Below are positions 19,722-51,833 of a stretch of 51,833 bases of DNA, piece after piece. Every line of letters begins with the position of its first letter. Within the stretch, counting starts at the first letter, position 1. The notes beneath the pieces were generated by a model. That model worked only from the letters and a program-made list of their open reading frames with translations, was not told the DNA's origin and made no database searches. The position numbers and the translations under genes were made by a program. This stretch comes from a virus. The stretch is from positions 95,642-147,474 of IMG/VR virus record IMGVR_UViG_3300030419_007368; one strand, written 5' to 3'.

Positions 19722-19881
19722 GATTTAAAACATCTCGGATCTTGTCTCTTACGCTCAGCAGTTCATTCAATTTGTACGTACTGTCCCAAAATTCTTTCTC
19801 TAAAAAATCTGTCTCGAATTTCCTCAAAGAGTGATTTAAAAAATTAAAAAGAACTTTCAACTCATCTTTATTCAAATCCAT
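19714..19881 (-). CDS. Small unknown protein (55 aa)
   Basis: Reading the minus strand from the ATG at 19881-19879 gives a complete 55-residue frame, MDLNKDELKVLFNFLNHSLR..., ending with TAA at 19714. It exactly fills the gap between two tightly packed genes and overlaps the zinc ribbon start by 8 nt, which supports it being real. It is predicted helical, with no recognisable motif. Confidence 0.6.
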   Translation of the reverse strand: MDLNKDELKVLFNFLNHSLRKFETDFLEKEFWDSTYKLNELLSVRDKIRDVLNRA

Positions 19882-33424: not shown

Positions 33425-34936
33425 TTACTCCAAAATTTGTCGATTGAGGGTGTGCGTGGCCATGTCCTCGATTGATTGCCTTGTTTCTTTATTGAACTTA
33501 TTTTCTATAAATGACAAGTACTTTTCATTTTGATAGTATTTGTCAAACGCTTCGTCCCTAAAAGAAAGAACTTCGGCTGCAGAAATATGTTTAGTTGGTA
33601 AGGGTTTGCACTCATATGAATGTTGTGAGTAACCAACATAGCTGTCTGGTAGCTCCCACCCTTCTTTAATTGCGTCTAAATATAGTTTGGACCCAGGATA
33701 AGCCATTGTCGAATAAAAATTTGCAAATTCACAATTTAAGTCGATGGCCATATCTAAAGTTTCTTGCATGGTTTCTACAGTGTCTTCCGGAAGCCCAAAA
33801 ATATAATTTCCAATCACATTTATTCCAGCATCTTTGATTTTTCCGACCAAATCAGAAATATTTACTTCTGTAAACTTCCCTTTCACCACATCTTTTCTTA
33901 CTACTTTATTACCTGATTCGATGCCAAGAGCGAGCCAGTTAACGCCGGCTTTTTTAAGTGTGTCTAAATATTCTTCTTTAACAGTATCAATCCTAGCATA
34001 CGCCCATATATTAAAGTCGTGCTCTCGGTCAATAATATTGTTGCATAATTTAAGAAAATGCTGTTTATTCATTACAAACATTTCATCTGCTATCTTTATA
34101 TTACGAATACCCATTTCATGAATCTTGTCAAATTCAGTTATAATGAAATCCGGATCCCAATATCTAAACTTGTTTCTTCCAAAATCCCAATTTTCGACGT
34201 TGTTATTCCCAAACGGCGCGTTTATGCAACAAAAGCTACATTTAAACGGACAACCCAGACTTGTATACAAAGAAGCAAAAGGTGTCTTGTCATTATTGTT
34301 TGACATAGCATGCCAATTTGAGGTGCGGTATTTTTCCATAGGCAGCAAATCCCAAGCCATACCCGGAAGTTCTTGTTGCATCTCGTTTTGTTTGATTAAA
34401 GGCGCCGGCTTAGTAAAACAAATATTAGAATCTGAATCTCTATACCACAGGCCTGGCACTTTCTTTAATTGTGTTTCGTCTGATAAATCAGAAATCTGTA
34501 AAAGCCCGGTTATAGTCTTAGGACCTTCCCCCTGACATACAAAATCAGCCTTTTCTTGTTGCATAGTTAACCTAGAGACAGCTGAAGGATAGAGTCCTGT
34601 TAAAAGTACTTTATTTTCTGGCCATTGCTCTTTTAATACTTCTAGTATGTCGTTAACGCCTTGCATATTCTGAGTTGAAGCAGACGGTTGTTGTCCATAT
34701 ACAACAATGACAGTTAATTTGGCTCCAATATCATTAATAGCGCGCGCGCTTACTTGAGCAGTCATCTGCTCTGCTTCACAATCCAATATTCCGGCGGCAA
34801 ACCCTTTCGAAACAACATGTTTAGCTAAAAGAGCAGCCCAGATAGGTGGCTCAATCGCAGACAAGTCTTTGCTAAGGTCCTGATATACACGCCGAGAAGC
34901 GTTTGGATGTACAAATAAAACGTCTAATTTACGCAT
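33425..34936 (-). CDS. B12-binding-domain radical SAM enzyme
   Basis: 503 residues. N-terminal 1-150 is a cobalamin-binding-like Rossmann fold (LFVHPNASRRVY ... KVLLTGLYPSAV) without the DxHxxG His motif. Radical SAM motif CPFKCSFC gives C229, C233, C236 (CxxxCxxC, the [4Fe-4S] ligands), followed by IADEMFVMNKQHF and GVNWLALGIESGNKVVR (substrate and SAM strands). Such enzymes act as class B methyltransferases or other C-H modifiers. Immediately next to the split TPP enzyme, it points to an unusual branched or C-alkylated sugar. The product remains unknown. Confidence 0.82.
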   Translation of the reverse strand: MRKLDVLFVHPNASRRVYQDLSKDLSAIEPPIWAALLAKHVVSKGFAAGILDCEAEQMTAQVSARAINDIGAKLTVIVVYGQQPSASTQNMQGVNDILEVLKEQWPENKVLLTGLYPSAVSRLTMQQEKADFVCQGEGPKTITGLLQISDLSDETQLKKVPGLWYRDSDSNICFTKPAPLIKQNEMQQELPGMAWDLLPMEKYRTSNWHAMSNNNDKTPFASLYTSLGCPFKCSFCCINAPFGNNNVENWDFGRNKFRYWDPDFIITEFDKIHEMGIRNIKIADEMFVMNKQHFLKLCNNIIDREHDFNIWAYARIDTVKEEYLDTLKKAGVNWLALGIESGNKVVRKDVVKGKFTEVNISDLVGKIKDAGINVIGNYIFGLPEDTVETMQETLDMAIDLNCEFANFYSTMAYPGSKLYLDAIKEGWELPDSYVGYSQHSYECKPLPTKHISAAEVLSFRDEAFDKYYQNEKYLSFIENKFNKETRQSIEDMATHTLNRQILE

Positions 34937-34944
34937 TTTTCACC

Positions 34945-35871
34945 TTAATAATTTGCATACCACGGACTTTCAATGACCGAGAATGCTTTCTTTAATTGTA
35001 TTATACCATCATCTAAATCAAATTTACAATCAAAACCTTTCTTATAAATTTTTTCGCTGCTGACAATATAATCTCTGGTATCCGGATCGGATGTAAATTC
35101 AGCCTTTATTATCTCTAAGGGCATATGTTCTGATATTTTCTGCGCCAGCTGTAACTTATTCATATTAATAGCGTCATTACCTACATTATAAGTTTCATTC
35201 TTGCAAGATTCCCAGTTATCAATAATAAACTGATATGATCTACAAACATCATGTATGTGAACATAATTTCTCATGAATTCACATTCGTATAAAACAATAA
35301 CCCTATCATTCATCGCTCTTAAAACAAAATTATTAACTAATAGATCACTGCGCATTCTAGAGCTTGGTCCAAAAACGGTCGCTAGCCTAAAAGTAACATG
35401 GTTGTCCACGCCCTTATAAGCATTCTCCGCGTCGACTTTTGTTACGCCATACAAAGTCAAAGGATTGAGTGGTGATTCTTCTGTGCACACACCATCGCTT
35501 TTTGAGCCATATCCAGAGTTTGTACAGGGATAAATAACCATTTGATCATTAGACTTGTTATCTGCTATCCATTGATTTACTTTATAATTTATCTCTTTCG
35601 CGTCTCTAGGGTTGTCGCGACAAAGGGGAAACCCAACGAGTGCCGCCAATGGTACAATAACATCAGCTTTCTTGACGTGTTTTGATAATTTTGTTAAATC
35701 TCTGACGTCGGCCTTTACAAAATTAAAGTTCGGATGGCTTGTGTATCTAAGAAGAGACGTCGCATCATACATAAGGTTATCATACACCTCGACACTATGC
35801 CCATCATCCAAAAGATACTGAACTAGTTCGCTTCCGATATATCCAGCGCCTCCGGTAATTAAGATATTCAT
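34945..35871 (-). CDS. UDP-glucose 4-epimerase-like SDR
   Basis: 308 residues when started at 35871, where ATG overlaps the preceding stop as ATGA and AAAGG lies upstream; the ORF beginning 42 nt earlier is less likely. NAD-binding motif ILITGGAGYIGSELVQYLL, YDNLMYDATSLLRY, PCTNSGYG and YGVTKVDAE as active-site Ser/Tyr/Lys set. FMRNYVHIHDVCRSYQF is the substrate-lobe signature of UDP-sugar epimerases and dehydratases. It is likely a sugar-nucleotide epimerase or dehydratase supplying the glycosyltransferases nearby. Confidence 0.78.
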   Translation of the reverse strand: MNILITGGAGYIGSELVQYLLDDGHSVEVYDNLMYDATSLLRYTSHPNFNFVKADVRDLTKLSKHVKKADVIVPLAALVGFPLCRDNPRDAKEINYKVNQWIADNKSNDQMVIYPCTNSGYGSKSDGVCTEESPLNPLTLYGVTKVDAENAYKGVDNHVTFRLATVFGPSSRMRSDLLVNNFVLRAMNDRVIVLYECEFMRNYVHIHDVCRSYQFIIDNWESCKNETYNVGNDAINMNKLQLAQKISEHMPLEIIKAEFTSDPDTRDYIVSSEKIYKKGFDCKFDLDDGIIQLKKAFSVIESPWYANY

Positions 35872-36158
35872 CTCTCCACCTTTCCTAAAATCCAATCTTT
35901 TAACATTATCCAATCACATGCCTTCGCCCAAAGCGGTTTTGAGAATGCGGCCGGCTTATTCTTTTCAAAAAAGAAATGACCTGACCATGCAAATGGATAT
36001 ACAACGAACGGCACAACCAGAAGAAGCAACCATGTCTTGGTTGACAGCGCGTAAAATAGTGTCAATAAAGTAAAAAATTGACCCATCACATGAAGTCGCC
36101 GGCATGTCTTGTTTTGATGCAGCGTCAAATAATATTGATAATACTCTTTAAAGTTCAT
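35868..36158 (-). CDS. DUF962/Mpo1-like membrane protein
   Basis: 96 residues from the ATG at 36158, which overlaps the previous stop as TGATG and has GGGAGGTGA upstream. YYQYYLTLHQNKTCRRLHVM, two hydrophobic segments (about 32-43 and 46-64) and HFFFEKNKPAAF with the conserved His match the Mpo1/YGL010w-like (DUF962) family, members of which are fatty-acid hydroxylases/dioxygenases in yeast. In a phage it may change host lipids or act only as a membrane scaffold. Its place among sugar genes is notable. Confidence 0.72.
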   Translation of the reverse strand: MNFKEYYQYYLTLHQNKTCRRLHVMGQFFTLLTLFYALSTKTWLLLLVVPFVVYPFAWSGHFFFEKNKPAAFSKPLWAKACDWIMLKDWILGKVER

Positions 36159-36559
36159 CACCAACTCACCTCCCAATCTTTAAATTCTGCAGCTAAACAG
36201 TCGATCTTGTAATCCTTACGACCACCAACAAGTTCTTGAATTTTATTTTTGGCTGTGTTTCTGATGCCGTTTATTCCATGTGTTAATTCAAGATTGTTTC
36301 CGTCTTTAATTCCTTTACGGTAATTTGATTCATTGTGCCAAATATGAAGATTCATTTGTGATAAGACCACAATAGCCCTAATAACCTCCGCATCAACCTT
36401 CTCACAATCATCAAGTACCAACTGTATATCATGAACTATATCTTTTATCTCCTGTCCGTATTCTTTCTTGTGCTCAGGTATGAAAACTTCCTTAAGTTGT
36501 ACTATAGAAAGTCGGTCAACCAATTCACTTAAAGTTGGCAGGTATTTTCTCTTCCCCAT
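36158..36559 (-). CDS. Conserved phage protein of unknown function
   Basis: 133 residues, helical, with LSELVDRLSIVQLKEVFIPE at the start, a central AIVVLSQMNLHIWHNESNYR and GNNLELTHGINGIRNTAKNK towards the C-terminus. These stretches are conserved in similar proteins beside glycosyltransferases of marine phages and bacteria, as I recall it; the function is unknown to me. The His/Glu/Asn-rich core could be an active site. It is co-translated with the Mpo1-like gene. Confidence 0.65.
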   Translation of the reverse strand: MGKRKYLPTLSELVDRLSIVQLKEVFIPEHKKEYGQEIKDIVHDIQLVLDDCEKVDAEVIRAIVVLSQMNLHIWHNESNYRKGIKDGNNLELTHGINGIRNTAKNKIQELVGGRKDYKIDCLAAEFKDWEVSW

Positions 36560-36560
36560 C

Positions 36561-38198
36561 TCATGTTCCTTTTAAGATTTGACTAAAGTAGGGTCTAAAT
36601 TTTGCAAAATTCGTGCCAAATAAATGTGCATACTTAAAAAACACATTTGCTTCTTCGCGAAGCTGTTCTGTATTATTATCTTGTCTGGAACGACCTCCAG
36701 AATAATATAGCCCTACTTTTTCGTTTATTTTTTTAAAAAGAGAGCCATTATTGACAGCCCTCAGCCACATCTCCCAATCATCAGCAAAATTACAGCCTTC
36801 TTGATCAAAAAATCCGGATTTATCATGCATTGTCTTTCTCCACAGCGGCATTGGACCAGGAACACACTTTACCATGTTTTCTTTTGAAAAACTATACCTA
36901 GAATGTTCAAATAGCGTCCCATTAGAAGAATTACTATCAAACGTTTCATTTATTTCGTCAGTTTGCAAAACATCTCCATAAACTAAGTCAATATTACCAT
37001 TATTCTCTATTTCGTTAAGCAAAATCTCCAAACAATTGAATTTTCTTCTATCATCAATAAACCCAAAGGTTAAATACTCCCCAGAAGCTTCTTTAATTGC
37101 CATATTCAAACAAGGAGTCGGTTTAAGCTTATTTTCAAGCCGTATATAGGAAATATTATCATATTTAGCCATATATCGTTCTATTGTGCTCATTTCCTCG
37201 CCAATACTGCCGGCATCTACAAAAATTAGCTCACATTCATCAAATTTTGTCTGTTTCGTGATATCGTCCAAAAACCCCTCTAAATGAGCTTCCCCATCGT
37301 GAAAAGTGCTTATAATAGAGACTTTTTTGGTCGAAAATAGACGTTTTTTTGCGTTTTTAACCGTATTTTCGACAAAATTAGCTATTTCTTGTCTTTTTTC
37401 GATCATATGATCAATAAGTGCTTCTCCCTTCAATTCAAACCACTTTTCTTGACATGCAGCGACTAATGAGTTCGTTTTAACAGACATGCCCATCATTCTG
37501 GCCTCAACCACGACTCTTGAGAGTGTTTCTGGGGTTTTTGGAAGAAAAACAAACGTTTTATTTGCACCTAGCTTATCTAAAAATGCTTCATAGTTATTAT
37601 CAGAGACTAACTCATACTCCAAATCATTCTCGCTGCAGTATGATACGGCTCCAGACGTGTTTTTATGAAGAATATTGGATTCTAGTACGGAACACCTAGT
37701 ATTTTTCTGTTTTTTGCAATTACTTCGAAGTTTGTTTAGAGAAGAAAGAGACCACAGGTTGCCAGAAATGTTAAAAACATTATCCAGAGCCAAATTTTTC
37801 TCAATTATCTCTTTATGAAGAGAAGACTGTGCAATAACCGCCTCTGCGTTCTTGTAAAAGAAGAAATTTCTTATTTCTTTTTGAGGTGCCTTGAAATTTC
37901 TGTAATTAGCTGGGTTTCTTGTGTTCAAATATTTATGATCATGCTCATAGATCACATAATTGCAATTTTTTCCGATCCACTTTTTAGAGTTGAAAGGTAA
38001 ATTACAAAAATTCGATATTATAAAAAAACAATCCTTATTTCTGTGAAGAAAATCTAAATTTACTGTGTGGGATTGGGCCTTTTTTACATTGAAGGCCTTT
38101 TCTTTCAATAATTTTATTAATTCATCGTCATTTAATTCGCAGCCGCCAATTATATGTTCGATAAAAAAATCAGATACATAAATTATTTCTTTATTCAT
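36561..38198 (-). CDS. Two-domain glycosyltransferase (GT4-like N-terminus, GT2 C-terminus)
   Basis: 545 residues from ATG 38198 (the TTG at 38210 is an unlikely start). The N-terminal 270 residues look like a GT-B fold with KTFVFLPKTPETLSRVVVEARMMG near 220-245 where GT4 proteins carry the EX7E motif. The C-terminal part is a GT2 domain beginning KVSIISTFHDGEAHLEGFL, with ELIFVDAGS, ASGEYLTFGFIDDRR as the DxD-like motif and EDWEMWLRA-type FADDWEMWLRA acceptor motif. A bifunctional transferase that extends a glycan by two sugars is the usual interpretation. It starts inside the end of the preceding GT4 gene (8 nt overlap). Confidence 0.75.
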   Translation of the reverse strand: MNKEIIYVSDFFIEHIIGGCELNDDELIKLLKEKAFNVKKAQSHTVNLDFLHRNKDCFFIISNFCNLPFNSKKWIGKNCNYVIYEHDHKYLNTRNPANYRNFKAPQKEIRNFFFYKNAEAVIAQSSLHKEIIEKNLALDNVFNISGNLWSLSSLNKLRSNCKKQKNTRCSVLESNILHKNTSGAVSYCSENDLEYELVSDNNYEAFLDKLGANKTFVFLPKTPETLSRVVVEARMMGMSVKTNSLVAACQEKWFELKGEALIDHMIEKRQEIANFVENTVKNAKKRLFSTKKVSIISTFHDGEAHLEGFLDDITKQTKFDECELIFVDAGSIGEEMSTIERYMAKYDNISYIRLENKLKPTPCLNMAIKEASGEYLTFGFIDDRRKFNCLEILLNEIENNGNIDLVYGDVLQTDEINETFDSNSSNGTLFEHSRYSFSKENMVKCVPGPMPLWRKTMHDKSGFFDQEGCNFADDWEMWLRAVNNGSLFKKINEKVGLYYSGGRSRQDNNTEQLREEANVFFKYAHLFGTNFAKFRPYFSQILKGT

Positions 38199-39456
38199 AC
38201 TCTTTGACAATTTCTTCTATTTCTTGCAACCAAGATTCTCTATCTTCTTCCGGAGAGATCAACTCAACCATTTTCTCATATTGCTTTTCAGCAGCAAATT
38301 CCTCACATACCCAAGATTGTAGATCTTTTGCCTGTTTTTTGAAGCGACTATGGTCTTTATAAATTTCGTCCATTGCCATCTTGATAGAGCCTGGTTCAGG
38401 ATAAGCCCAGTTAGAATTTTCATGTAATACTCCTTTCCAGACCACTTCCTTTTGAATAGGGCCCATCGTGTAGCTAATTCTTTTGAACATCGGCTTGAGT
38501 TTCTCTTTGCCGTTTTTTCTCTTAGTTGGCTTATAGAGGAAGTCTAAGTGACCACTCCAATCAGTTGCTGCGATTGGGAGACCATAATAGGAGGCTTCGA
38601 ATATTGGAAGTCCGAAGCCCTCGCCGTGAGTAGTAGAAACCAAGGCTTTTATGCTGGGGTGAGTGTATAGTCCAGCCATCTCTTCATCAGTCATATATCC
38701 ATGCAATAAATAAACTTTACATTTCGCATCTTGATAAGGGGCAAGAAGTACTTTTAATTTACTCTCAGTATTTACCCGATCCAATAGAGAGTTTTTTCCA
38801 ATGTTGACCTTCAACACTAAGCCAACATCCTCATTGTCTTTAAAATTGTCGAAGAAACAAGAAATTAATTGAGGCAAGTTCTTGCGCGGACTAATTTGCA
38901 CCACAGATAAAAAATTAAACTTTGTCGGTAGATCAAGATCTAGCTTTTTTGGTTCTTTTTGCAAAACCGGGTAAGATACATACTCAACAGGAGTTGGACA
39001 TGACAGCCTCATTTCCTCTCCTGTTTGTTCATTTTTTGCTTGATATGAAGTGCCGAGGAAGGTGTCTCTAGAGTGAGCCGAAATAGTTAAAATTTTATCA
39101 ACTACTGATGCTTTTTCAAGCCATTCCGGAGCTACTGCAGTAGTTTCTATACCAGCTGTGATTCCTATATTAACAGGAGCTACTCTTTGCCACTCATTCG
39201 GAATAGAGACCTGTAAAGACATATCAAACTGACCACCATTTCTAACATAATGGATTGTCTTTTCTAAAGTTTGATCGATCCACTTCCTCTCTTCATCGTC
39301 ATGCCAAATCCAACTGGTGGCGCCCCAATTCAATGCGTGTAGATAAATATCGAACAGATCTTCTCTTGTGCGCAAGGCTCTTAAAATAGTGCGAGTATGA
39401 TGTCCATAACCTGATTGAGTCAATAATGGACCACGCAACATCACTCTTTTCTTCAT
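38191..39456 (-). CDS. GT4-family glycosyltransferase
   Basis: 421 residues. GT-B fold: MLRGPLLTQSGYGHHTRTI opens with the flexible donor/acceptor loop typical of GT4, and THGEGFGLPIFEASYYGLPI is the donor-binding EX7E motif (about residue 275). LSVVQISPRKNLPQLISCF precedes the C-domain. A C-terminal acidic helix (EEIEEIVKEYE) ends the protein. Overlaps the next gene by 4 nt. The sugar is not known. Confidence 0.85.
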   Translation of the reverse strand: MKKRVMLRGPLLTQSGYGHHTRTILRALRTREDLFDIYLHALNWGATSWIWHDDEERKWIDQTLEKTIHYVRNGGQFDMSLQVSIPNEWQRVAPVNIGITAGIETTAVAPEWLEKASVVDKILTISAHSRDTFLGTSYQAKNEQTGEEMRLSCPTPVEYVSYPVLQKEPKKLDLDLPTKFNFLSVVQISPRKNLPQLISCFFDNFKDNEDVGLVLKVNIGKNSLLDRVNTESKLKVLLAPYQDAKCKVYLLHGYMTDEEMAGLYTHPSIKALVSTTHGEGFGLPIFEASYYGLPIAATDWSGHLDFLYKPTKRKNGKEKLKPMFKRISYTMGPIQKEVVWKGVLHENSNWAYPEPGSIKMAMDEIYKDHSRFKKQAKDLQSWVCEEFAAEKQYEKMVELISPEEDRESWLQEIEEIVKEYE

Positions 39457-40712
39457 ACTTTAACCTCTTTAAATTCCCAAGTTTTATAACCCTTTCTGGT
39501 GTCCCAAGACCCATGTTTCTCATAGACAGATTTAAGGATTTTATCCCACTTTTCACCGAAGTCGTTGAAGTTATAATTCTTTTCAACGTGTTTTCTGCCC
39601 TTAAGTCCAATTTCTCTTCTTTGTTCTCGACTGAACTCATACATTTTCATAAGAGCATTTACAAAGTCATCTTTGCTAATCCTATCTTCGTAGATATAAG
39701 GAATATCTTGAGAGCCGATAATGGACTTTGATGAAGGCTCAATGCCTACGCCGAACCACTCTTTGCCATCCGTTACCTGTTCTTGCAGGCCTCCGGTCAT
39801 AGTCGCGACAACCGGGGTCGCACATGACAACGATTCTAGGGCACTTAAGCCAAATCCTTCTGCATCGGAAATGTTAACAGTGACGTCTGCAATATTATAC
39901 ATTGCTGCTAATTGAGGAAAATCAACCTTTTTTGTTGAAAATCTGATTTCTCCGCTTGTTAAGCCAAGTTTGTCTATGACAGCGATCAAATTAGGGCCAT
40001 TTGGGTCAGAAGGATCAGTATGCATGACAAGCTTTGCTTTGTCGTGCCCAACCTTATCTAAAAATTCTTTGAACCAAAAACAAAGAGTGCCAGTGTGTTT
40101 CCTTCTTGCATTTCGACTATTGAAAAATACGACAAAATCGTCCGGAGAGACACCCATCTCTTTTCTTAAAGTTTGAATTTCTGCTTCTTCTAAAGGCTTA
40201 AAGAATTCAGAATTAACTGCATGTGGCAAATAGTGCCCCTCTACATCTGGAGATACGTTGTTCACTATATCGTGCGTAACTTTTGATATCGACACCACTA
40301 CGTCAGTAGAATCGTACCAGACCTTATTAAAGTCTGGATAAGGATAATTGTCCCAAACATGATAATACACCATGGGCACCAAAGATCTAACTTCATCTTC
40401 AATTTCCCACAACCATGGGAAAAATCTTGGATCTGTCATGAACCACAACATGTCTGGGCGAACCGTACGGAGCATAGATCTAACTATGTCCTGTGTGCCA
40501 TATCCATCAACTGGATATATAATGCAATCATCGCCGTAATCATCGACTTTTATTGGTGAATAATTCTCATGCTTAATTGCTCCACCTAGACATGTAAAAG
40601 AATAATCGCCAGTTTTCAGCAATGCCTCCAACATGTATCTGGTCTGTGTACCAACACCAGACGGGGACAACGGATGATCAGCAATTACCAATACTTTAAT
40701 TTTATCTTTCAT
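39453..40712 (-). CDS. GT4-family glycosyltransferase
   Basis: 419 residues. Starts VLVIADHPLSPSGVGTQTRYM (GT-B nucleotide-sugar loop), with VVVFFNSRNARRKHTGTLCF as the hinge, and ISDAEGFGLSALESLSCATPVV carrying the EX7E donor motif (about residue 290). Length and order are typical for GT4. It is the first glycosyltransferase after the DNA-metabolism genes, with its start 2 nt from the nuclease gene, and is coupled by a 4 nt overlap to the next. Confidence 0.86.
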   Translation of the reverse strand: MKDKIKVLVIADHPLSPSGVGTQTRYMLEALLKTGDYSFTCLGGAIKHENYSPIKVDDYGDDCIIYPVDGYGTQDIVRSMLRTVRPDMLWFMTDPRFFPWLWEIEDEVRSLVPMVYYHVWDNYPYPDFNKVWYDSTDVVVSISKVTHDIVNNVSPDVEGHYLPHAVNSEFFKPLEEAEIQTLRKEMGVSPDDFVVFFNSRNARRKHTGTLCFWFKEFLDKVGHDKAKLVMHTDPSDPNGPNLIAVIDKLGLTSGEIRFSTKKVDFPQLAAMYNIADVTVNISDAEGFGLSALESLSCATPVVATMTGGLQEQVTDGKEWFGVGIEPSSKSIIGSQDIPYIYEDRISKDDFVNALMKMYEFSREQRREIGLKGRKHVEKNYNFNDFGEKWDKILKSVYEKHGSWDTRKGYKTWEFKEVKV

Positions 40713-44418: not shown

Positions 44419-45171
44419 ATGAAAAAATATTTAAATCTTTTATTGATATTTATTGTACCATTTATAAGTAGTTGTGTTTCGCAAACGACCGTAGTTAAAC
44501 GCCTTTCTGATGTTAAAAAATCAGTAGTAAAAATAGAAACCTATATAAAGCCAGGGGCATGCTCTGATGGGAATACATGTTCTGCTCCAGAATATTCTCT
44601 CCATTCATCCGGATCCGGATCAATTATAATATATGGAGGGTCATTGGCAATATTAACAGCCGCGCATATATGCAACTTAGGACCTTTAGAGGATATTGTA
44701 CGTAAAAGTGGCGGAGACATAGTGCACAAGGCGATTGATCGGTCGAACAAAGTGCATGCGCTGTTCATATTAAAATATAATTTAAAATTAGACATATGTA
44801 TACTTGGCGCTCAAAAAACAAAAGATCTCCCAAATTATCCATTAGTGCTGGCGGTCAAAGCTCCGGAATATGCAGAAAAAGTATATAATCTAGCTGCGCC
44901 GGTTGGCATTATTGATGGAGAGATGGTGCCGGTGTATGAAGGCAGATTTTTTGGTAATAGTAAAAGAAATGCGTTTTACGGAATTCCCACTATTGGTGGT
45001 TCTTCTGGATCTCCTATTGTTAATATTAAAGGTGAATTAGTCGGTGTGATTCATTCTGTGCATTATAGGTTTCATCATATAACTCTTTCTGCAACATATA
45101 CAGATCTCTGGAACTTTATAAAGATTCCACGAAGCCATGAATCAATATATCAAAATTTATTGACACATTGA
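44419..45171 (+). CDS. Lipoprotein trypsin-like serine protease (only plus-strand gene)
   Basis: 250 residues. MKKYLNLLLIFIVPFISSC is a lipoprotein signal (Cys19). Chymotrypsin-fold motifs are TAAHIC with His83, LKLDICIL with Asp125, and GGSSGSPI with Ser196 (third residue of the GDSGGP-like box), so the catalytic triad appears complete. A lipid-anchored protease exposed in the periplasm or outer membrane is expected. It is transcribed opposite to everything else, suggesting its own early promoter or recent acquisition. No strong ribosome site is seen before its ATG. Confidence 0.78.
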   Translation: MKKYLNLLLIFIVPFISSCVSQTTVVKRLSDVKKSVVKIETYIKPGACSDGNTCSAPEYSLHSSGSGSIIIYGGSLAILTAAHICNLGPLEDIVRKSGGDIVHKAIDRSNKVHALFILKYNLKLDICILGAQKTKDLPNYPLVLAVKAPEYAEKVYNLAAPVGIIDGEMVPVYEGRFFGNSKRNAFYGIPTIGGSSGSPIVNIKGELVGVIHSVHYRFHHITLSATYTDLWNFIKIPRSHESIYQNLLTH

Positions 45172-45440: not shown

Positions 45441-45520
45441 TGGTCGGGCAGGTGGGGATTGAACCCACGTGTAACCGACTACTCTTTCTACGCTTTATAA
45501 GAGCGAGGAGATACTGCCCG
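45441..45520 (-). tRNA. Atypical tRNA-like gene, candidate tRNA-Ile(UAU), no D arm
   Basis: The minus strand reads CGGGCAG at 45520-45514 pairing with CTGCCCG, then ACCA encoded at 45444-45441: a perfect seven-pair acceptor. The T arm GTGGG-TTCAATC-CCCAC is canonical. An anticodon-like stem-loop CGCT-CTTATAA-AGCG gives anticodon UAU in the usual CU-nnn-AA loop context (isoleucine AUA). Only 8 nt separate the acceptor from this stem, so there is no D arm, and the variable region is about 21 nt with a small GTAG-TCGG-TTAC hairpin. Either a degenerate or a truly noncanonical tRNA. Confidence 0.6.
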
Positions 45521-46011: not shown

Positions 46012-47742
46012 TTAAGAATTAATTTTAATTTTTATTTTATTTTTAGATCTTTGAAAATTTTTAGATTCTTGCAAATCCTGGGGAAATCCAGGAGCGTTCC
46101 ATCTTGTTGGATTTTGATACTCCGGAGAATCGGGCTTAAAAGTACGTCCTGAAGAATCTTTAGGCGCAGGAAATATTTTTTTCATAAACCCGCGGAGATT
46201 CTTACCCATTATCTTTCTTAAAGCTGGATCAACAAGATCGACTCCACTTTTTTGATATTTTCTAACTCGACGAAGTGTGTTACGATCTTCAGCGGTCCAG
46301 GGCCCTCCAGGTGTCTCAGTTCCAATTGGTATATTTTCCCAGTGTCTCTTCAAGAACATCATCTTGCTCCATGCAAGATAATATCTGGTTTGAATTTTAG
46401 CATGAAGATTAAAAAACTCTTCATGTACAAACCAATCGTCTTGATATCCAGCCCACCCAACAAGAAATTGAGCCAGCTCATCAAAACCATGACCTTGTGC
46501 TAAAGTTGTTAGCTTAAGCGCCTCTGAAGAGGTTGCGCCATGCATTTGTGCATCTTGTAACGCTTGATATATTACTACAGCATCAGCCGGAAGCATTAAC
46601 CATCCAGCTATTTTACCTAGGCCTCTGGCGCCCGTAGCGCCTGCGCGCTTAAGCGCTCCGCCAAGAGTTTTCTTTGTTGCGCCTCCAGAGTCTATTATGT
46701 CCTTTAAATCCTTTAAAGCTATTAATGACTGTCTTAGTTTCTGGGCTCGCTGAGTTTGCGCTGCTATTTTCTTTTCTGGAGATCCAGGAGTATTCATCAA
46801 TTTAACATTTTTTGCGCGCGCCTTAGCAAGATCTCTCTTGACTTTATTGATGTCTGCGTCAACTGCTGCAGACATTTTAACTCTCCCTCTTTTAGTCAAA
46901 GGAGGTGCGTTGATCGCGCTCATCTGTCTTCTATATATTTTTGATGTTGGGTCAAGTCGATCGATAACAAAACCCCAGCTAGTTCCAATAGTTGTTCTTA
47001 TTCTATCTGCAATTCTGCGCGCTAAAGAAGCAGTTTCTCCTTTTGCCAATCGGAATTCTTTAGAGCTAGATAAAGACCTCCAGCCTTTGCTTTGAGTTTC
47101 AACCATATCTGAAATTTCGTCTAATACGTGCTGATAATCTTGAGTCCATCTTTTTGGAAGGATGCCGTCAGCGTCAAGTTTGCGAAGATCATCTGCGCTA
47201 TAATGACCACGAAGATCCGAATTTACCACTATGTCTCCGTTAGCTAGTATCTCTACTGTCTCTAGAGGTATAGCGTGTGGAGTAAAGCCTGGCGCCGGCT
47301 TGCCGCTGGGAAGCCTAGGCGTTTCAACTCCTGGCGTCGGCGGAAGATTTTTCAGTCGGGGATTATCAGAGCCTGGCATCGGTTTGATTGGCCCGACGTC
47401 ACGCGGCGCGCCATACTTTTTTTTCGCCGCCGGCGGATCGCCGTAGTCAAGACCTTTAGCTGGACCCACGCCAGGCGCTGGCATGACCGTTGGAGTCCGC
47501 TTCCCGGCGGATCGTTGCCCGGGAAGCGTTTCAGTTCCCACAAAGATGCGACCCGCTGGATTTTCGAACGAGAACGCTCCAGTATCCGGATTAATTTTTA
47601 TAACTGGTTTCTGAATTGAAGAAGTATTTTTTGTCTTGTTGTGTAAATCAACGATGGCACGAAAAATTTCTTGTTTTTCCCGCATATCTAACATTGACCC
47701 TTCAGATAACAATTGCTTGTTGTTGATTTTAATTTTTATCAT
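46012..47742 (-). CDS. Putative capsid-internal/ejected protein with terminal processing signals
   Basis: 576 residues. It opens with MIKIKINNKQLLSEGSML; LSE fits the T4 prohead-protease rule (L/I)xE, giving a putative 14-residue propeptide. It ends with PQDLQESKNFQRSKNKIKIK, where LQE repeats the rule and IKIKI repeats the N-terminal sequence. Residues 65-165 are Pro/Gly-rich. The middle has long basic helices (RIADRIRTTIGTSWGF, INKVKRDLAKARAKNVKLMN). No enzyme motif. By analogy with T4 internal proteins (Alt, IPs) it would be packaged in the head and ejected with DNA; that is inference. Grouped with three other genes with the same signals. Confidence 0.65.
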   Translation of the reverse strand: MIKIKINNKQLLSEGSMLDMREKQEIFRAIVDLHNKTKNTSSIQKPVIKINPDTGAFSFENPAGRIFVGTETLPGQRSAGKRTPTVMPAPGVGPAKGLDYGDPPAAKKKYGAPRDVGPIKPMPGSDNPRLKNLPPTPGVETPRLPSGKPAPGFTPHAIPLETVEILANGDIVVNSDLRGHYSADDLRKLDADGILPKRWTQDYQHVLDEISDMVETQSKGWRSLSSSKEFRLAKGETASLARRIADRIRTTIGTSWGFVIDRLDPTSKIYRRQMSAINAPPLTKRGRVKMSAAVDADINKVKRDLAKARAKNVKLMNTPGSPEKKIAAQTQRAQKLRQSLIALKDLKDIIDSGGATKKTLGGALKRAGATGARGLGKIAGWLMLPADAVVIYQALQDAQMHGATSSEALKLTTLAQGHGFDELAQFLVGWAGYQDDWFVHEEFFNLHAKIQTRYYLAWSKMMFLKRHWENIPIGTETPGGPWTAEDRNTLRRVRKYQKSGVDLVDPALRKIMGKNLRGFMKKIFPAPKDSSGRTFKPDSPEYQNPTRWNAPGFPQDLQESKNFQRSKNKIKIKINS

Positions 47743-47745
47743 AGC

Positions 47746-48396
47746 TTATATCCTTCCTGGTTCACACTTTTTTCCTCCTCCATCGATAGCCGGCGTCGGC
47801 TTATATCCGGGAGGGCAATCCGGCCCTAAGATTTTTTCTATTGGGGCCGTGAGCACAAGCGGAAAATTACGGTTTTGAAACCGTTTCGCATCACGAATAA
47901 TTCTCAAATCTGATTTGGTAAATTTTCTTCTGTCTTTAAATGCTCTACCATCGCTACAATGTTCTTTTCGAACTTCTTTTGGTGTGTCTAAATCACAGTT
48001 TTCTAGATATACCCTGTATATTCCTACTTCGCCAACTCTTCCTCGTGTATATTTATAAAGATCCCATGCTTCTCGATATCTTATCTTTATTTTTCCTAAT
48101 TCCTCTGTAGGATCCCAGAAGCCTTGAGTGTAAAGTCTTTTATGAAACATATCTCTACATTTAGACTGCAAACCACCGGCAGACATACACTCTATGTAAA
48201 GATCTCTTGCTGGTATGAGTTCGCCGATCGCGGCCATGCCACTGGCCCACCCAACAACTTTGAAAAATCCTTTAAAGAAGTTTTTGAACGCCGACGTCGA
48301 GCCAGTTGCTAGTAACTCAGGATCTGGTAGTTTTGACCCTTCGCCTAATAACTCCCTTGACCTTTTTCTGCTTTCTTTTATTGTTACTCGGATCAT
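47746..48396 (-). CDS. Putative capsid-internal protein with N-terminal LxE propeptide
   Basis: 216 residues. The N-terminus MIRVTIKESRKRSRELLGEG has LGE|G, again matching the (L/I)xE cleavage rule and the MI(K/R) start of the gene just downstream (46012-47742, 3 nt away). The following part has a hydrophobic helix (SAFKNFFKGFFKVVGWASGM) and many Cys (CMSAGGLQSKC, LENCDLD, EHCSDG, PDCPPG, KKCEPG) that could form disulphides in the virion. No known function. Confidence 0.62.
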   Translation of the reverse strand: MIRVTIKESRKRSRELLGEGSKLPDPELLATGSTSAFKNFFKGFFKVVGWASGMAAIGELIPARDLYIECMSAGGLQSKCRDMFHKRLYTQGFWDPTEELGKIKIRYREAWDLYKYTRGRVGEVGIYRVYLENCDLDTPKEVRKEHCSDGRAFKDRRKFTKSDLRIIRDAKRFQNRNFPLVLTAPIEKILGPDCPPGYKPTPAIDGGGKKCEPGRI

Positions 48397-48429
48397 ACTA
48401 GTAATTAGTGCAATAAGTTTGTTATAATA

Positions 48430-48816
48430 TTAAGTACTGTATTTTTCTTTTATGTGCGGGCTTATTGGTACTGAGTCGCCGTCTCCATCAACTCTAACAA
48501 ATGTCATATCTGTTGAGCAAACACGACGTTGCGAGCCGTTGTATGGACTGTGCCTCCTGGCCTCCAAGCCCACGATTATTGAGGAGTTGCCAATTTTTTT
48601 AAGATCGCCATAAATTTTAATTATCTGCCCCGGCCTTACTGGTTTTTCAAAAATAACTTCTGTTATTTTTTTAGTCACCATCCTAGGTGATTCACAGATT
48701 TCAGCTGCTAGAGTGGCGCCGGCTTCATCGAGCCAAGATAACATGAGTCCTCCGAATAGATTTCCATGGAATCCAACGTCTTTTGTCATACAAACGTGAG
48801 ATGATATTAATTTCAT
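48430..48816 (-). CDS. Hotdog-fold acyl-CoA thioesterase (YciA-like)
   Basis: 128 residues. SSHVCMTKDVGFHGNLFGGL with Asn19 and MLSWLDEAGATLAAE with Asp30 are the typical hotdog active-site motifs; KKITEVIFEKPVRPGQIIKI is the second half. Known YciA-type enzymes hydrolyse acyl-CoAs. In a phage this is an auxiliary metabolic gene that may free CoA or fatty acids, or change lipid pools. Its start follows the small membrane gene's stop with no gap, so both are co-translated. Confidence 0.82.
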   Translation of the reverse strand: MKLISSHVCMTKDVGFHGNLFGGLMLSWLDEAGATLAAEICESPRMVTKKITEVIFEKPVRPGQIIKIYGDLKKIGNSSIIVGLEARRHSPYNGSQRRVCSTDMTFVRVDGDGDSVPISPHIKEKYST

Positions 48817-48984
48817 TTATTTTCCTTTGATTAAACGATTTAATCGTTTTATTTTTTTATCTAAAACAGATATTTCATCTTCTAAATTAGCTAATCGTTC
48901 TTGAGTAGAATAATAGAACCCACCCATTGTAGCAGCAAAAGCCACAATTGTTATCAAAGTTTTAAGATCTAAATTAATCTTCAC
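48817..48984 (-). CDS. Small single-span membrane protein (55 aa)
   Basis: From GTG at 48984 (overlaps the upstream stop by 11 nt) the frame reads MKINLDLKTLITIVAFAATM, then GGFYYSTQERLANLEDEISV and a basic end, stop at 48817. One transmembrane helix (about residues 8-25) followed by a coiled-coil-like segment with LxxLxxxIxxLxxKI spacing. This layout fits a small holin, an inner-membrane spanin or a phage membrane scaffold. Its zero-gap junction with the thioesterase gene (AAAGGAAAATAAATG) supports it. Confidence 0.72.
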   Translation of the reverse strand: MKINLDLKTLITIVAFAATMGGFYYSTQERLANLEDEISVLDKKIKRLNRLIKGK

Positions 48985-49408
48985 TTTCCATCTCACGCGG
49001 ATTATTTTTGATAGGTCCGCCAGAGGCCCAACTTAAACACGTTCTTTCTTGTCGGCATACAAAATCAAACTTGTGACAAAAGCCAAAACCGCCTGCGTCC
49101 CATTGCTCGTATTCATCGTCTGCGACTGCTTTCTCCAAACACTCTTTCATTTGAGAAGAAACATTGAAAAACCTGCAGTTATGACATCTCATACTTTTAG
49201 CTTGCTTTACATCTGTATTCCATTTATCTGCATAAAAATCCCAAAATTTTTCGTTGGCTTCACCAGGGTTCGCCGGCCCATATTTTGCTTCATCAATCGC
49301 TATTTGTCTTTTTTCATTGTTTAATTGTGAGTCTTGAGTTGCAGGAGGACAAACAAACTCTTTTACTTCATTTACAAATTTACGCCAGTTTTCAAATAAG
49401 TTTTTCAT
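48974..49408 (-). CDS. Cys-rich putative capsid-internal protein with targeting N-terminus
   Basis: 144 residues. MKNLFENWRKFVNEVKEF is strikingly close to the T4 internal-protein capsid-targeting sequence (for example IPIII, MKTYQEFIAEA), with VNE in place of the LxE site. The rest has a six- or seven-Cys pattern (MRCHNCRFFN, MKECLEKA, FGFCHKF, FVCRQERTCLSW) suggesting a small metal-binding or disulphide domain, and ends CLSWASGGPIKNN. It may be packaged with the genome. The metal and function are unknown. Confidence 0.65.
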   Translation of the reverse strand: MKNLFENWRKFVNEVKEFVCPPATQDSQLNNEKRQIAIDEAKYGPANPGEANEKFWDFYADKWNTDVKQAKSMRCHNCRFFNVSSQMKECLEKAVADDEYEQWDAGGFGFCHKFDFVCRQERTCLSWASGGPIKNNPREMESED

Positions 49409-49438: not shown

Positions 49439-51373
49439 TTACTTCCATTTTCGCCAGTTTTCGAAAATCATTTTCATTTCTTGTAAGTCTTGAGGAACAG
49501 GTCCTATTTCTTCTTTTTCACCTTTATCTCCATGGGCCCAAGAAGGCGTTTGATCAAGATCTGGATAATCCTCAATATCTTCTTTTGAAGGTCCAAGATA
49601 TCTTCTTCCTTTCATGAGCCATTCACCAACTTCCGAACCATATTTTTTAGCTAAAATCATAATTAATTCAGTTAATTCTACTCCTGGGTCAAATGACCTT
49701 GCTATTTCTAAAAGTATTAATGAATGAAGCTCTGCTTGAGAATCTCCAAGCGCAACTAACGGCATGCCGGCAAGCGTTTGAACTGCTCCGCCAACTGTCA
49801 TAGATGTTGTACCATCCCATTCTTCGCGAATGCCGGCTTTCCGCTCCAGTCCGCGTATATAAGCTGCATATGCTTCGTCATAAGGAAAAAGTGCTGTTGC
49901 AAAGAATGTGCTAAAGAACGGAATCTTTCTTAGAGTTCTTTTAAACCAGTTTTTATCAGGTTTCTTGTTCGCAACAGTCATTTCTCGCGAACCTTGTTCG
50001 GAAAGATCTTCTAAATCTAGCCGCATGTTACTTAGTTCTTCCCAGGACTCTACCATATCATCCAAGAGTTCTATGTTTTTTATAATTGGTTTTTTCTTGC
50101 CCATCAAATTAAAATTTCTGACTAGCACAAGACTAACTAAACGATTTCTAACTAATTTTCTCTCTAAAGGCTGCAATCTTTCCCAACCAACTCTTGATGC
50201 TTTAGAGATTATAGGATCGTTAGTTGCTTTACTAATGTACAATTCTAGATATTTTTCAGGATCGCGGGTTACTTGAGCCACAATTTTTTCTATATTTACT
50301 TGTTCGTCAGAGATTCTTTTCCAGAATTTTTCAGGAAGGATTTCTACTCCTTGTTCTCTGGTACCGACGGCCATGGCTTTTTCTGGATCCATGATCAAAG
50401 ACGGGCTGAAATGCTCCGTATCGTCGAGTTTATTCAGAGAGTGAAAAAGATCCGCCATGGCATCTCCATACACCACGGGAACAAACCTAGGTTTCCTCGG
50501 GCTCGGAGCCTTAAGGCGGCTTGCGACATCTGAGACGTCTTTTCGCACTCTTTTTGGATTTTCAATTTCAATGCTATAATATCGTGCTATGTCTTGTGCT
50601 ATGTCTCTTGAGTTTTTTGCCATCAAGCGTATTGTTTTTTCAGAATAAGGCATGCTTAAAATTATGGTGTTTAAGAGCCACTCTCTCATTGCGTACGCTA
50701 AGGCTGGTTTTTTTGTTGAGCTTGTTCGTCCAATGCCCCGCCGTTCGCGGTGGATGTTCAGGTGCTTAAACCACTCCTCAACAGCGAAATCAAGTATATT
50801 TGAATAATATGCCCATTGGCTTCTTTTTAATTCTTTACTTAATGCATGAAGTACATAACGATGCGGCGCCAGCTGCCGACCAATATGACCTTTACCATAT
50901 TCCAAATTATCAAAAAATTTATCTTGCAGTTTATCAGCAAATTCTTTTTGTTTTTTACCAGCGTCTGCGTACGCGCCATTCTTCCTGCGCCATCTTTCGA
51001 ATCTTTCTTTAAGATATGCTTCGGCTTGTTTTTTCTCGGTAAAGCTCAAATCTTTTATTCCTCTTCCGTCAGGAGATTTGGCTGTATCGAGAATACTCTG
51101 AAAAACAAATTCAATTCCTTTCGGGCCCGCATACCATTTAAAATTAAATTTTGCGCCTTTCGGCCAATATTTCCAACCATCTTCAATCCATGAATCAAGA
51201 CCTATTTTGTTTGGATCTCTTGTTAGATCCAGGACGTCTCCTTCGAAAGTTTCGAGGTATTGCTGAGGATTGGCCTCCATTTTATTTTTTAAAGCGTCCA
51301 GCGCGTCTTGTCCGGGAAGGTCTGTTGGCGCCTCGTTTAAGAATATTCTAAAATTTTCAAATAGTTTTTGCAT
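49439..51373 (-). CDS. Large putative capsid-internal protein with targeting signals at both ends
   Basis: 644 residues. N-terminus MQKLFENFRIFLNEAPTDLP has LNE|A, exactly the (L/I)xE rule, and closely matches the N-terminus of the gene just downstream. The C-terminus is PQDLQEMKMIFENWRKWK: LQE again, followed by a second copy of the FENWRK targeting peptide. The middle is mainly long basic helices (LVRNRLVSLVLVRNFNLMGK) and a hydrophobic part RKIPFFSTFFATALFPYDEA. No enzyme motif recognised. Probably packaged and ejected with DNA. The tmRNA gene ends 13 nt upstream of its ATG. Confidence 0.68.
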   Translation of the reverse strand: MQKLFENFRIFLNEAPTDLPGQDALDALKNKMEANPQQYLETFEGDVLDLTRDPNKIGLDSWIEDGWKYWPKGAKFNFKWYAGPKGIEFVFQSILDTAKSPDGRGIKDLSFTEKKQAEAYLKERFERWRRKNGAYADAGKKQKEFADKLQDKFFDNLEYGKGHIGRQLAPHRYVLHALSKELKRSQWAYYSNILDFAVEEWFKHLNIHRERRGIGRTSSTKKPALAYAMREWLLNTIILSMPYSEKTIRLMAKNSRDIAQDIARYYSIEIENPKRVRKDVSDVASRLKAPSPRKPRFVPVVYGDAMADLFHSLNKLDDTEHFSPSLIMDPEKAMAVGTREQGVEILPEKFWKRISDEQVNIEKIVAQVTRDPEKYLELYISKATNDPIISKASRVGWERLQPLERKLVRNRLVSLVLVRNFNLMGKKKPIIKNIELLDDMVESWEELSNMRLDLEDLSEQGSREMTVANKKPDKNWFKRTLRKIPFFSTFFATALFPYDEAYAAYIRGLERKAGIREEWDGTTSMTVGGAVQTLAGMPLVALGDSQAELHSLILLEIARSFDPGVELTELIMILAKKYGSEVGEWLMKGRRYLGPSKEDIEDYPDLDQTPSWAHGDKGEKEEIGPVPQDLQEMKMIFENWRKWK

Positions 51374-51388
51374 ATTATTAAATAGTTG
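51354..51388. repeat. Imperfect 35-nt direct repeat at a gene start (copy 2)
   Basis: Start of the 49439-51373 gene and its leader; matches 49389-49423 over about 35 nt with a few differences and a shifted base. Its last bases run into the CCA end of the tmRNA gene, so the tmRNA 3' end and the repeat are joined. Confidence 0.7.
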
Positions 51389-51740
51389 GTGGAGGTGCCG
51401 GGAGTCGAACCCGGGTCCTAAATATATCCACTATAACGTCATTCACAAGGTTAGTCAGTTATAAGAACTCTGACAAACACCCACCGAGCGCACCACCAAG
51501 TTTGTCCTATGGGCCTAACTTGGAAAAACCACTTGACCGTTTACTCCCCTTGCGGGTATCCTTCAACGGAACCAGTCTTTTGATGATAAGGCATTGGTCG
51601 CTCCCCATGTTTACGCCGCTAGGGCGTAATCAAATGCAACGTTGTCGTTGGCTTTTATAATTTGAGTGTTTTTACTGTGCCACACTCACACAGCCTTGCA
51701 CGCTATATTTTCAATACTCAGTCGATACCTATTCACCCCC
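51387..51740 (-). ncRNA. ssrA: Transfer-messenger RNA (tmRNA), one-piece, encodes tag ANDNVAFDYALAA
   Basis: 354 nt. The 5' end GGGGGTGAATAGGTATCGAC at 51740 pairs with CACCTCC at 51391-51397 (seven pairs, one G-U), followed by ACCA encoded down to 51387. The T arm CCGGG-TTCGACT-CCCGG is standard, as in bacterial tmRNA. The open frame at 51652-51611 reads Ala-Asn-Asp-Asn-Val-Ala-Phe-Asp-Tyr-Ala-Leu-Ala-Ala, then TAA: a complete proteolysis tag with the resume codon GCC. It starts 4 nt after the stop of a virion-type gene and ends 13 nt before the next gene, so it is part of the phage's operon. Confidence 0.94.
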
Positions 51741-51744
51741 GTGA

Positions 51745-51833
51745 TTACCACTTTACTTTATCAGCCCAATAAGCAGCCGACATCTTGCCTTTTTTAATAT
51801 TTTGCCCATGCCGAGCTTTAAAAGACTTTCTTT
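51745..51833 (-). CDS. C-terminus of a virion-type protein (runs off right edge)
   Basis: 29 codons of open frame, ending with TAA at 51745: the end reads SFKARHGQNIKKGKMSAAYW then ADKVKW. This kind of (F)KARH...AYWxxKVKW ending is conserved at the C-terminus of a marine T4-like structural/head-assembly protein, as I recall it, but I cannot name the protein. It lies just upstream of the tmRNA gene. Confidence 0.6.
   Translation of the reverse strand, partial: RKSFKARHGQNIKKGKMSAAYWADKVKW

Follow-up and report, generated by a model that had tools for sequence, protein, structure and literature searches.

Why should a large phage carry a tmRNA of its own, with a tag of its own? On the usual reading, phage tmRNAs have been captured from their hosts. 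The question is raised by a stretch of 51,833 nucleotides (the window), corresponding to bases 95642-147474 of a linear virus record of 147,474 bases, in which a tmRNA gene lies 93 bases from the record end. A preliminary description of this DNA held tmRNAs to be known in only a few phage groups, a view that is outdated given that 402 of 18,146 phage genomes (2.3%) carry one (PMC9004378). A tag and a 3′-end signature that appear virus-confined, covariation over dozens of viral copies and mainly synonymous change in the tag turn the need for a phage's own rescue system and own tag into a testable question. Our best explanation, to which we give a probability of roughly 0.7, is that the gene encodes a real, conserved one-piece tmRNA of a T4-like phage, which would provide extra ribosome rescue and tagging during infection, and that it belongs to a lineage carried by large phages rather than being a recent capture of a host ssrA.

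ARAGORN and Infernal with the Rfam models place a complete one-piece tmRNA (ssrA), including the encoded CCA, with identical bounds at window positions 51740..51387 on the minus strand. The match to RF00023 covers model positions 1-374 of 374 and reaches 124.4 bits (E 3e-48), the gathering threshold of the family being 47 bits. The preliminary description, which gave no strand, had described a complete one-piece molecule with a paired acceptor, T arm, CCA and a tag ending in ALAA; the two programs agree with it on these points, and the search with the Rfam tmRNA model that it had proposed returned this family. The 7-bp acceptor stem is formed by the 5′ strand GGGGGUG (51734..51740, minus strand), which contains G3 of the G3-U70 pair, and by the 3′ strand CACCUCC, which together with the T-arm, the discriminator A and CCA occupies 51387..51414 (minus strand; placed by Infernal, the sequence itself and covariation). 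The tag frame lies at 51611..51652 on the same strand (ARAGORN coding part 89-130) and reads ANDNVAFDYALAA followed by a stop, with GCC as the resume codon and ALAA as the tag end. Pseudoknot PK1 (51663..51694, minus strand) combines the stems CUGUG/CACAG and UGAGUGU/ACACUCA. Each defining feature of RF00023 that can be tested conclusively is found in the window tmRNA.

The internal domain scores below what is typical: phage tmRNAs reach 103-135 bits in Infernal, against about 160-240 bits for most of the sampled bacterial ones. The internal sequence of the PK2-PK4 region is too variable for alignment, covariation being found there only in a short 3′ hairpin, and folding the entire tmRNA as a single sequence gives no useful information (z -1.8). 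A two-piece (permuted) tmRNA was considered and rejected, as the match to RF04321 is a partial cross-match of 52 bits that runs off the contig end and the order of parts given by ARAGORN is that of a one-piece molecule.

The carrier of this gene is a large T4-like phage. Its record encodes a T4-type baseplate wedge and PhoH, as well as terminase, portal, head maturation protease (phrog_207), major head protein, tail sheath, tail tube, tape measure, DNA polymerase and ribonucleotide reductase; ARAGORN detected no further tmRNA and no ordinary tRNA in the whole record. Two other viral contigs, G001 (122,942 bases) and G003 (180,711 bases), are collinear with it gene by gene, and in both the tmRNA is internal, among phage genes, with its 3′ end at positions 19739 and 31193 and with 89% and 85% identity to the window tmRNA, respectively. 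The preliminary description had allowed for a host chromosome with an element integrated at ssrA. Neither host chromosome nor att junction occurs at the 3′ end, and phage genes are found throughout, as in the collinear phage contigs. Among named phages, the closest by terminase are Flavobacterium phage immuto (44%) and, next, Microcystis phage Mel-JY01 (40%), and neither has a tmRNA above cut-off. Elsewhere, a close relative of the tmRNA (L072:4-350) directly follows the gene of a DNA-primase-like protein, with an overlap of 8 nt, which indicates that the tmRNA gene has moved within the phage group. We also would like to point out a run of genes at window positions 33425-40712 (minus strand) with glycosyltransferases and a B12-binding radical SAM protein, partly common to related phages, which is possibly a surface-sugar or tail-modification island.

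The structure of the tmRNA is under selection. In an alignment of 25 one-piece viral relatives, including PK1, pairing is kept in 93% of pair cells, and two-sided changes are seen in 33 of the 52 pairs; the covariation score is 0.435 versus 0.166 for shuffled alignments, with none of the 500 shuffles and no slid version coming close. Two-sided changes occur in helices 2-6, that is, in the long P2 helix that closes the mRNA domain and in PK1, both stems of which covary (helices 5 and 6). G3-U70 is GU in all 25 relatives and the T-stem is 100% paired. The reading of this gene as a complete phage-borne tmRNA with its own tag, structurally conserved in relatives, is supported.

Selection on the tag itself was assessed from its codons. 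When viral contigs were searched for the 3′ end of the tmRNA, at least 120 stretches matched, and their tags were tabulated. Tags of the form ANDNVxFDYALAA, to which that of the window belongs, are kept mainly by synonymous change, pairwise comparison of codons in the tag-blind set giving 29 synonymous versus 13 nonsynonymous differences, a count of pairs among five sequences and not of independent events. In two other viral tag families the corresponding ratios are 68:75 and 51:42, so that the constraint on the peptide differs between tag families. Note also that eight viral one-piece tmRNAs (L029, L041, L053, L059, L078, L095, L120 and L125) have predicted tags of 23-32 amino acids, such as GEEKSSFTWEDAMSFIGADYAVAA, which recur in several contigs.

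Both the tag and the 3′ end appear, from the sequences sampled, to be essentially confined to viruses. The degenerate pattern ANDNxx[FY]DYALAA followed by a stop was found in 59 IMG/VR viral stretches and in 0 of 84,980 prokaryote species genomes. A tag-independent 3′-end signature, TGTGAAYGAC before the T-arm, occurs in 44 viral stretches versus two genome contigs, both from metagenome-assembled genomes (MAGs); plasmids gave only 3′-end matches. One MAG contig carries the viral tag ANNNLHFEQRLAA; the Marinimicrobia bin in which it lies has an ordinary tmRNA as well, with the tag ADYGYAAAA. The other is of uncertain origin, with no second tmRNA above cut-off. The tag had been proposed as a hint to the host group; it occurs in no sampled bacterial genome and gives no such hint, and the 3′-end signature, matched by these two MAG contigs only, was likewise rejected as a guide to the host. 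Of 75 phage tmRNAs placed in a tree together with 59 from bacteria, 72 form one clade apart from all the bacterial ones, with moderate support (0.89) and with Streptomyces phage EGole at the base. Since the bacterial sequences represent two broad groups, Marinimicrobia and Gammaproteobacteria, the phage-only character of this clade is a strong lead and not proof, and an unsampled host lineage could have the same type of tmRNA. No description of this tag lineage was found in the literature accessible without subscription.

Compared with bacterial one-piece ssrA (RF00023), the window tmRNA has the same order of parts, the G3-U70 acceptor, T-arm, CCA, long P2, PK1, an alanine resume codon and the ALAA end. 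It differs in its location on a phage without detected SmpB, in its lower model score and in a tag and 3′-end signature not found in sampled bacterial tmRNAs. Among phages, tmRNAs are known in the Streptomyces BE cluster (PMC13191466), with StarPlatinum and EGole as examples, and these have about 82% identity to the window tmRNA over 65 nt around the resume site. The BE phages are, however, siphophages with large tRNA sets and other tags (ANSNVASAYALAA in BE records, ANSKFAFALAA in EGole). Melnitz-type myophages of OM43 and SAR11 are also T4-like phages encoding a tmRNA, but that of Melnitz is a permuted molecule in two pieces, which is akin to the ssrA of alphaproteobacteria and linked to a glutamine riboswitch (PMC9004378), whereas that of the window is one-piece, of another lineage and among other neighbours. 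Phage-borne ssrA is further known from Bacillus phage G, mycobacteriophages Bxz1 and Wildcat, and others (PMC4131195); the three named belong to other phage groups than the window phage.

What might such a molecule do? SmpB was not detected in any of 20 phage records (the window record and 19 others), bacterial controls being matched, and host SmpB, AlaRS and EF-Tu would therefore have to serve the phage RNA. We infer that the expressed transcript would be cut by RNase P at its 5′ end and trimmed at its 3′ end as far as the encoded CCA; host AlaRS would attach alanine to it via G3-U70, and host SmpB and EF-Tu would bind it. Once inside a ribosome that had stalled, in the infected cell, on a broken or exhausted mRNA, it would add the phage tag ANDNVAFDYALAA and free the ribosome, while the ALAA end would still be readable by host ClpXP-type proteases. 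The benefit would probably be that ribosome recycling is kept up while host mRNA is destroyed.

A different purpose for the same reactions would be redirection rather than an addition to host proteolysis, the phage tmRNA outcompeting that of the host and so changing the adaptor or protease to which stalled proteins are delivered. The phage tag series ANDNVxFDYALAA, ANDDVExFEDFALAA and ANNNLHFxxRLAA are distinct from the sampled bacterial tags, and the mainly synonymous change in the family of the window speaks for this reading. However, the protease-read ends ALAA and RLAA are ordinary, the N-terminal AND resembles the tags of many bacteria, and the mere need for tagging would also explain conservation of the tag; we regard redirection as unlikely, although the strongest of the competitors. 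Less probable still is a decoy role, in which the phage RNA would titrate SmpB, AlaRS or EF-Tu of the host and dampen its trans-translation. Such a role has a parallel in mycobacteriophage DS6A, which has little beyond the tRNA-like domain, strong inhibition of tmRNA being reported for a similar molecule (PMC4131195), and the lack of detected SmpB in the phage record would suit it, but a decoy needs neither a tag frame nor a resume region, and both are conserved here, as are the long P2 helix and PK1. That the gene is a relic of host ssrA or a neutral hitchhiker, brought in for instance by integration, is disfavoured to the point of being very improbable: ssrA is a common integration site and its fragments travel with prophages (PMC9004378), but this gene is of full length, internal to collinear phage genomes and strongly covarying, with no close bacterial source found and a tag kept across divergent relatives.

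The surroundings of the gene bear on when extra rescue and tagging by the phage tmRNA might be available. The preliminary description was right in both gaps, TCAC (4 nt) separating the upstream stop codon from the tmRNA and ACTATTTAATAAT (13 nt) separating the tmRNA from the downstream ATG at 51373. It also placed the tmRNA inside an operon and suggested a role during late expression. T4 late promoters are the model by which we read motifs of the CTATTTA type. CTATTTA is strongly enriched upstream of genes in the genome of the window phage (G000), in G001 and in G003 (12 occurrences versus 0.59 expected, 9 versus 0.48 and 12 versus 1.05, respectively), being the top-scoring upstream 7-mer in the first two and among the top three in the last. 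The putative late-promoter motif of the phage, ACTATTTA, is also found upstream of the genes for tail sheath, tail tube and tape measure, which CTATTTA precedes by about 30-60 nt with a Shine-Dalgarno sequence between them. Besides its genome-wide copies in these three genomes, it occurs on the minus strand of the window at 51379-51385 and 49420. Copies fall into two classes. In one, the motif and the virion gene that it precedes are about 24-60 nt apart and a Shine-Dalgarno sequence lies in between; in the other, the motif stands 12-14 nt before the ATG, without Shine-Dalgarno sequence and putatively leaderless. This motif offers a handle on gene timing in an uncultured phage group. Note also that CTATTTA stands 14 nt before the ATG of a gene at 44419-45171 (plus strand, opposite to its neighbours), kept in G001 and G003, whose protease-like product (phrog_9683) begins with a signal peptide of the lipoprotein type.

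The 13-nt spacer after the tmRNA (51374..51386, minus strand) is itself a putative late promoter of the second class, 12 nt before the downstream ATG, and L060, L162 and the window all have it in identical form, although the downstream gene of the window has no detectable homologue in related records. Because the gap is a copy of the motif, identical in three phages, a single operon is unsupported; by analogy with T4, late transcription of the downstream gene probably begins separately, on an mRNA that is perhaps leaderless, and the tmRNA would therefore need only an upstream promoter. Late expression of the tmRNA likewise found no support: the 93 upstream bases present contain no late-promoter-like motif, and in a sister subclade (L187, L169 and L183) a sigma70-like promoter and a boxA-like GTTCTTTWAAAAT, read by eye, directly precede the tmRNA. 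The same leader, which resembles the boxA of rRNA antitermination, stands just before the tmRNA in L198 too, sigma70-like promoters being present in several of these four. In seven further relatives (L150, L163, L172, L179, L189, L161 and L165), the frame of an upstream gene of ~130 amino acids runs on for about 33-39 nt past the 5′ end of the tmRNA, so that coding sequence and tmRNA may overlap.

Both flanking genes had been called virion-type, a label for which the support is indirect. The upstream gene (51745..51831, minus strand) is cut by the contig end, leaving its last 28 amino acids, RKSFKARHGQNIKKGKMSAAYWADKVKW, which match uncharacterised proteins of Roseobacter phage CRP-9 and Vibrio phage D274; its DNA has 77-81% identity over 82-90 nt to genes of phages CRP-9, CRP-1 and D274. 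The downstream gene (49439..51373, minus strand) encodes 644 amino acids beginning with the capsid-targeting-like MQKLFENFRIFLNE; it matches no PHROG or Pfam family and has no relatives in the viral contigs or in 11 related phage records. With the gene that follows the tmRNA in L060 it shares only the start MQKLFEN, which indicates that the conserved unit is the tmRNA, spacer and first codons, and not the gene behind. Further cargo-like genes follow at 46012..49408 (minus strand), namely 48974-49408 (MKNLFENWRKFVNE), 47746-48396 and 46012-47742, the last two with LLGEGS / LLSEGS near the N-terminus; a 4HBT-fold thioesterase (48430-48816, minus strand) lies within this group.

In favour of the virion-type label are the common N-termini of the neighbours, MKxLFENWRxFVNE or MKITKxxLxxIIxEE (4, 4 and 8 genes in three genomes), which end in LNE, VNE or LDE, an (L/I)xE-like cleavage site, in a genome that encodes a T4-type head maturation protease (phrog_207); the 644-aa protein lends it no homology, and the upstream gene offers 28 residues only. 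T4 internal proteins are diverse anti-defence proteins with only the capsid-targeting sequence in common (PMC3012670). The N-termini seen here resemble such sequences, and by this likeness it is plausible that the neighbours are packaged in the head. In L060, the gene after the tmRNA (L060:6476-7594) fuses the N-terminus MQKLFENWRKY to a thioredoxin-like WCGPC domain, and its product is possibly a capsid-carried redox protein.

A second small RNA, of 80 nt, lies at 45441-45520 (minus strand) and was missed by ARAGORN. It has acceptor and T arms, an anticodon stem and an encoded CCA; no D-arm is present, a three-pair helix extends the anticodon arm and the linker holds a D-loop-like AGYYGGUUA. 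A second RF00023 match at this position was rejected as a second tmRNA, ordinary tRNAs scoring similarly low. The anticodon loop is CUUAUAA (UAU), with GAU in Streptomyces phages, both being isoleucine anticodons. Across 14 phage sequences, 99.2% of pair cells hold and 11 of 19 pairs are changed on both sides. A model of this RNA scores 97-107 bits in 11 phage records; elsewhere, 114 gammaproteobacterial genomes among them, no score exceeds 38 bits. This three-armed tRNA-Ile-like RNA is common to T4-like and Streptomyces BE phages, and several carriers, namely G000, G001, G003, G022, G025 and EGole, the last at the base of the viral tmRNA clade, also have a tmRNA.

Tentatively, and with far less confidence than the tmRNA itself commands, one may picture an old, independent phage tmRNA lineage that no longer exchanges with hosts and has its own tag series, placed in this subclade beside late-promoter-driven capsid-cargo genes and often accompanied by the phage-only tRNA-Ile-like RNA, the two perhaps forming a translation-takeover module common to T4-like phages and Streptomyces siphophages. 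Of the two RNAs, the tRNA-Ile-like one is possibly the more novel; it is present in about 45 Streptomyces phages, where it is mostly unannotated and once annotated as tRNA-Leu.
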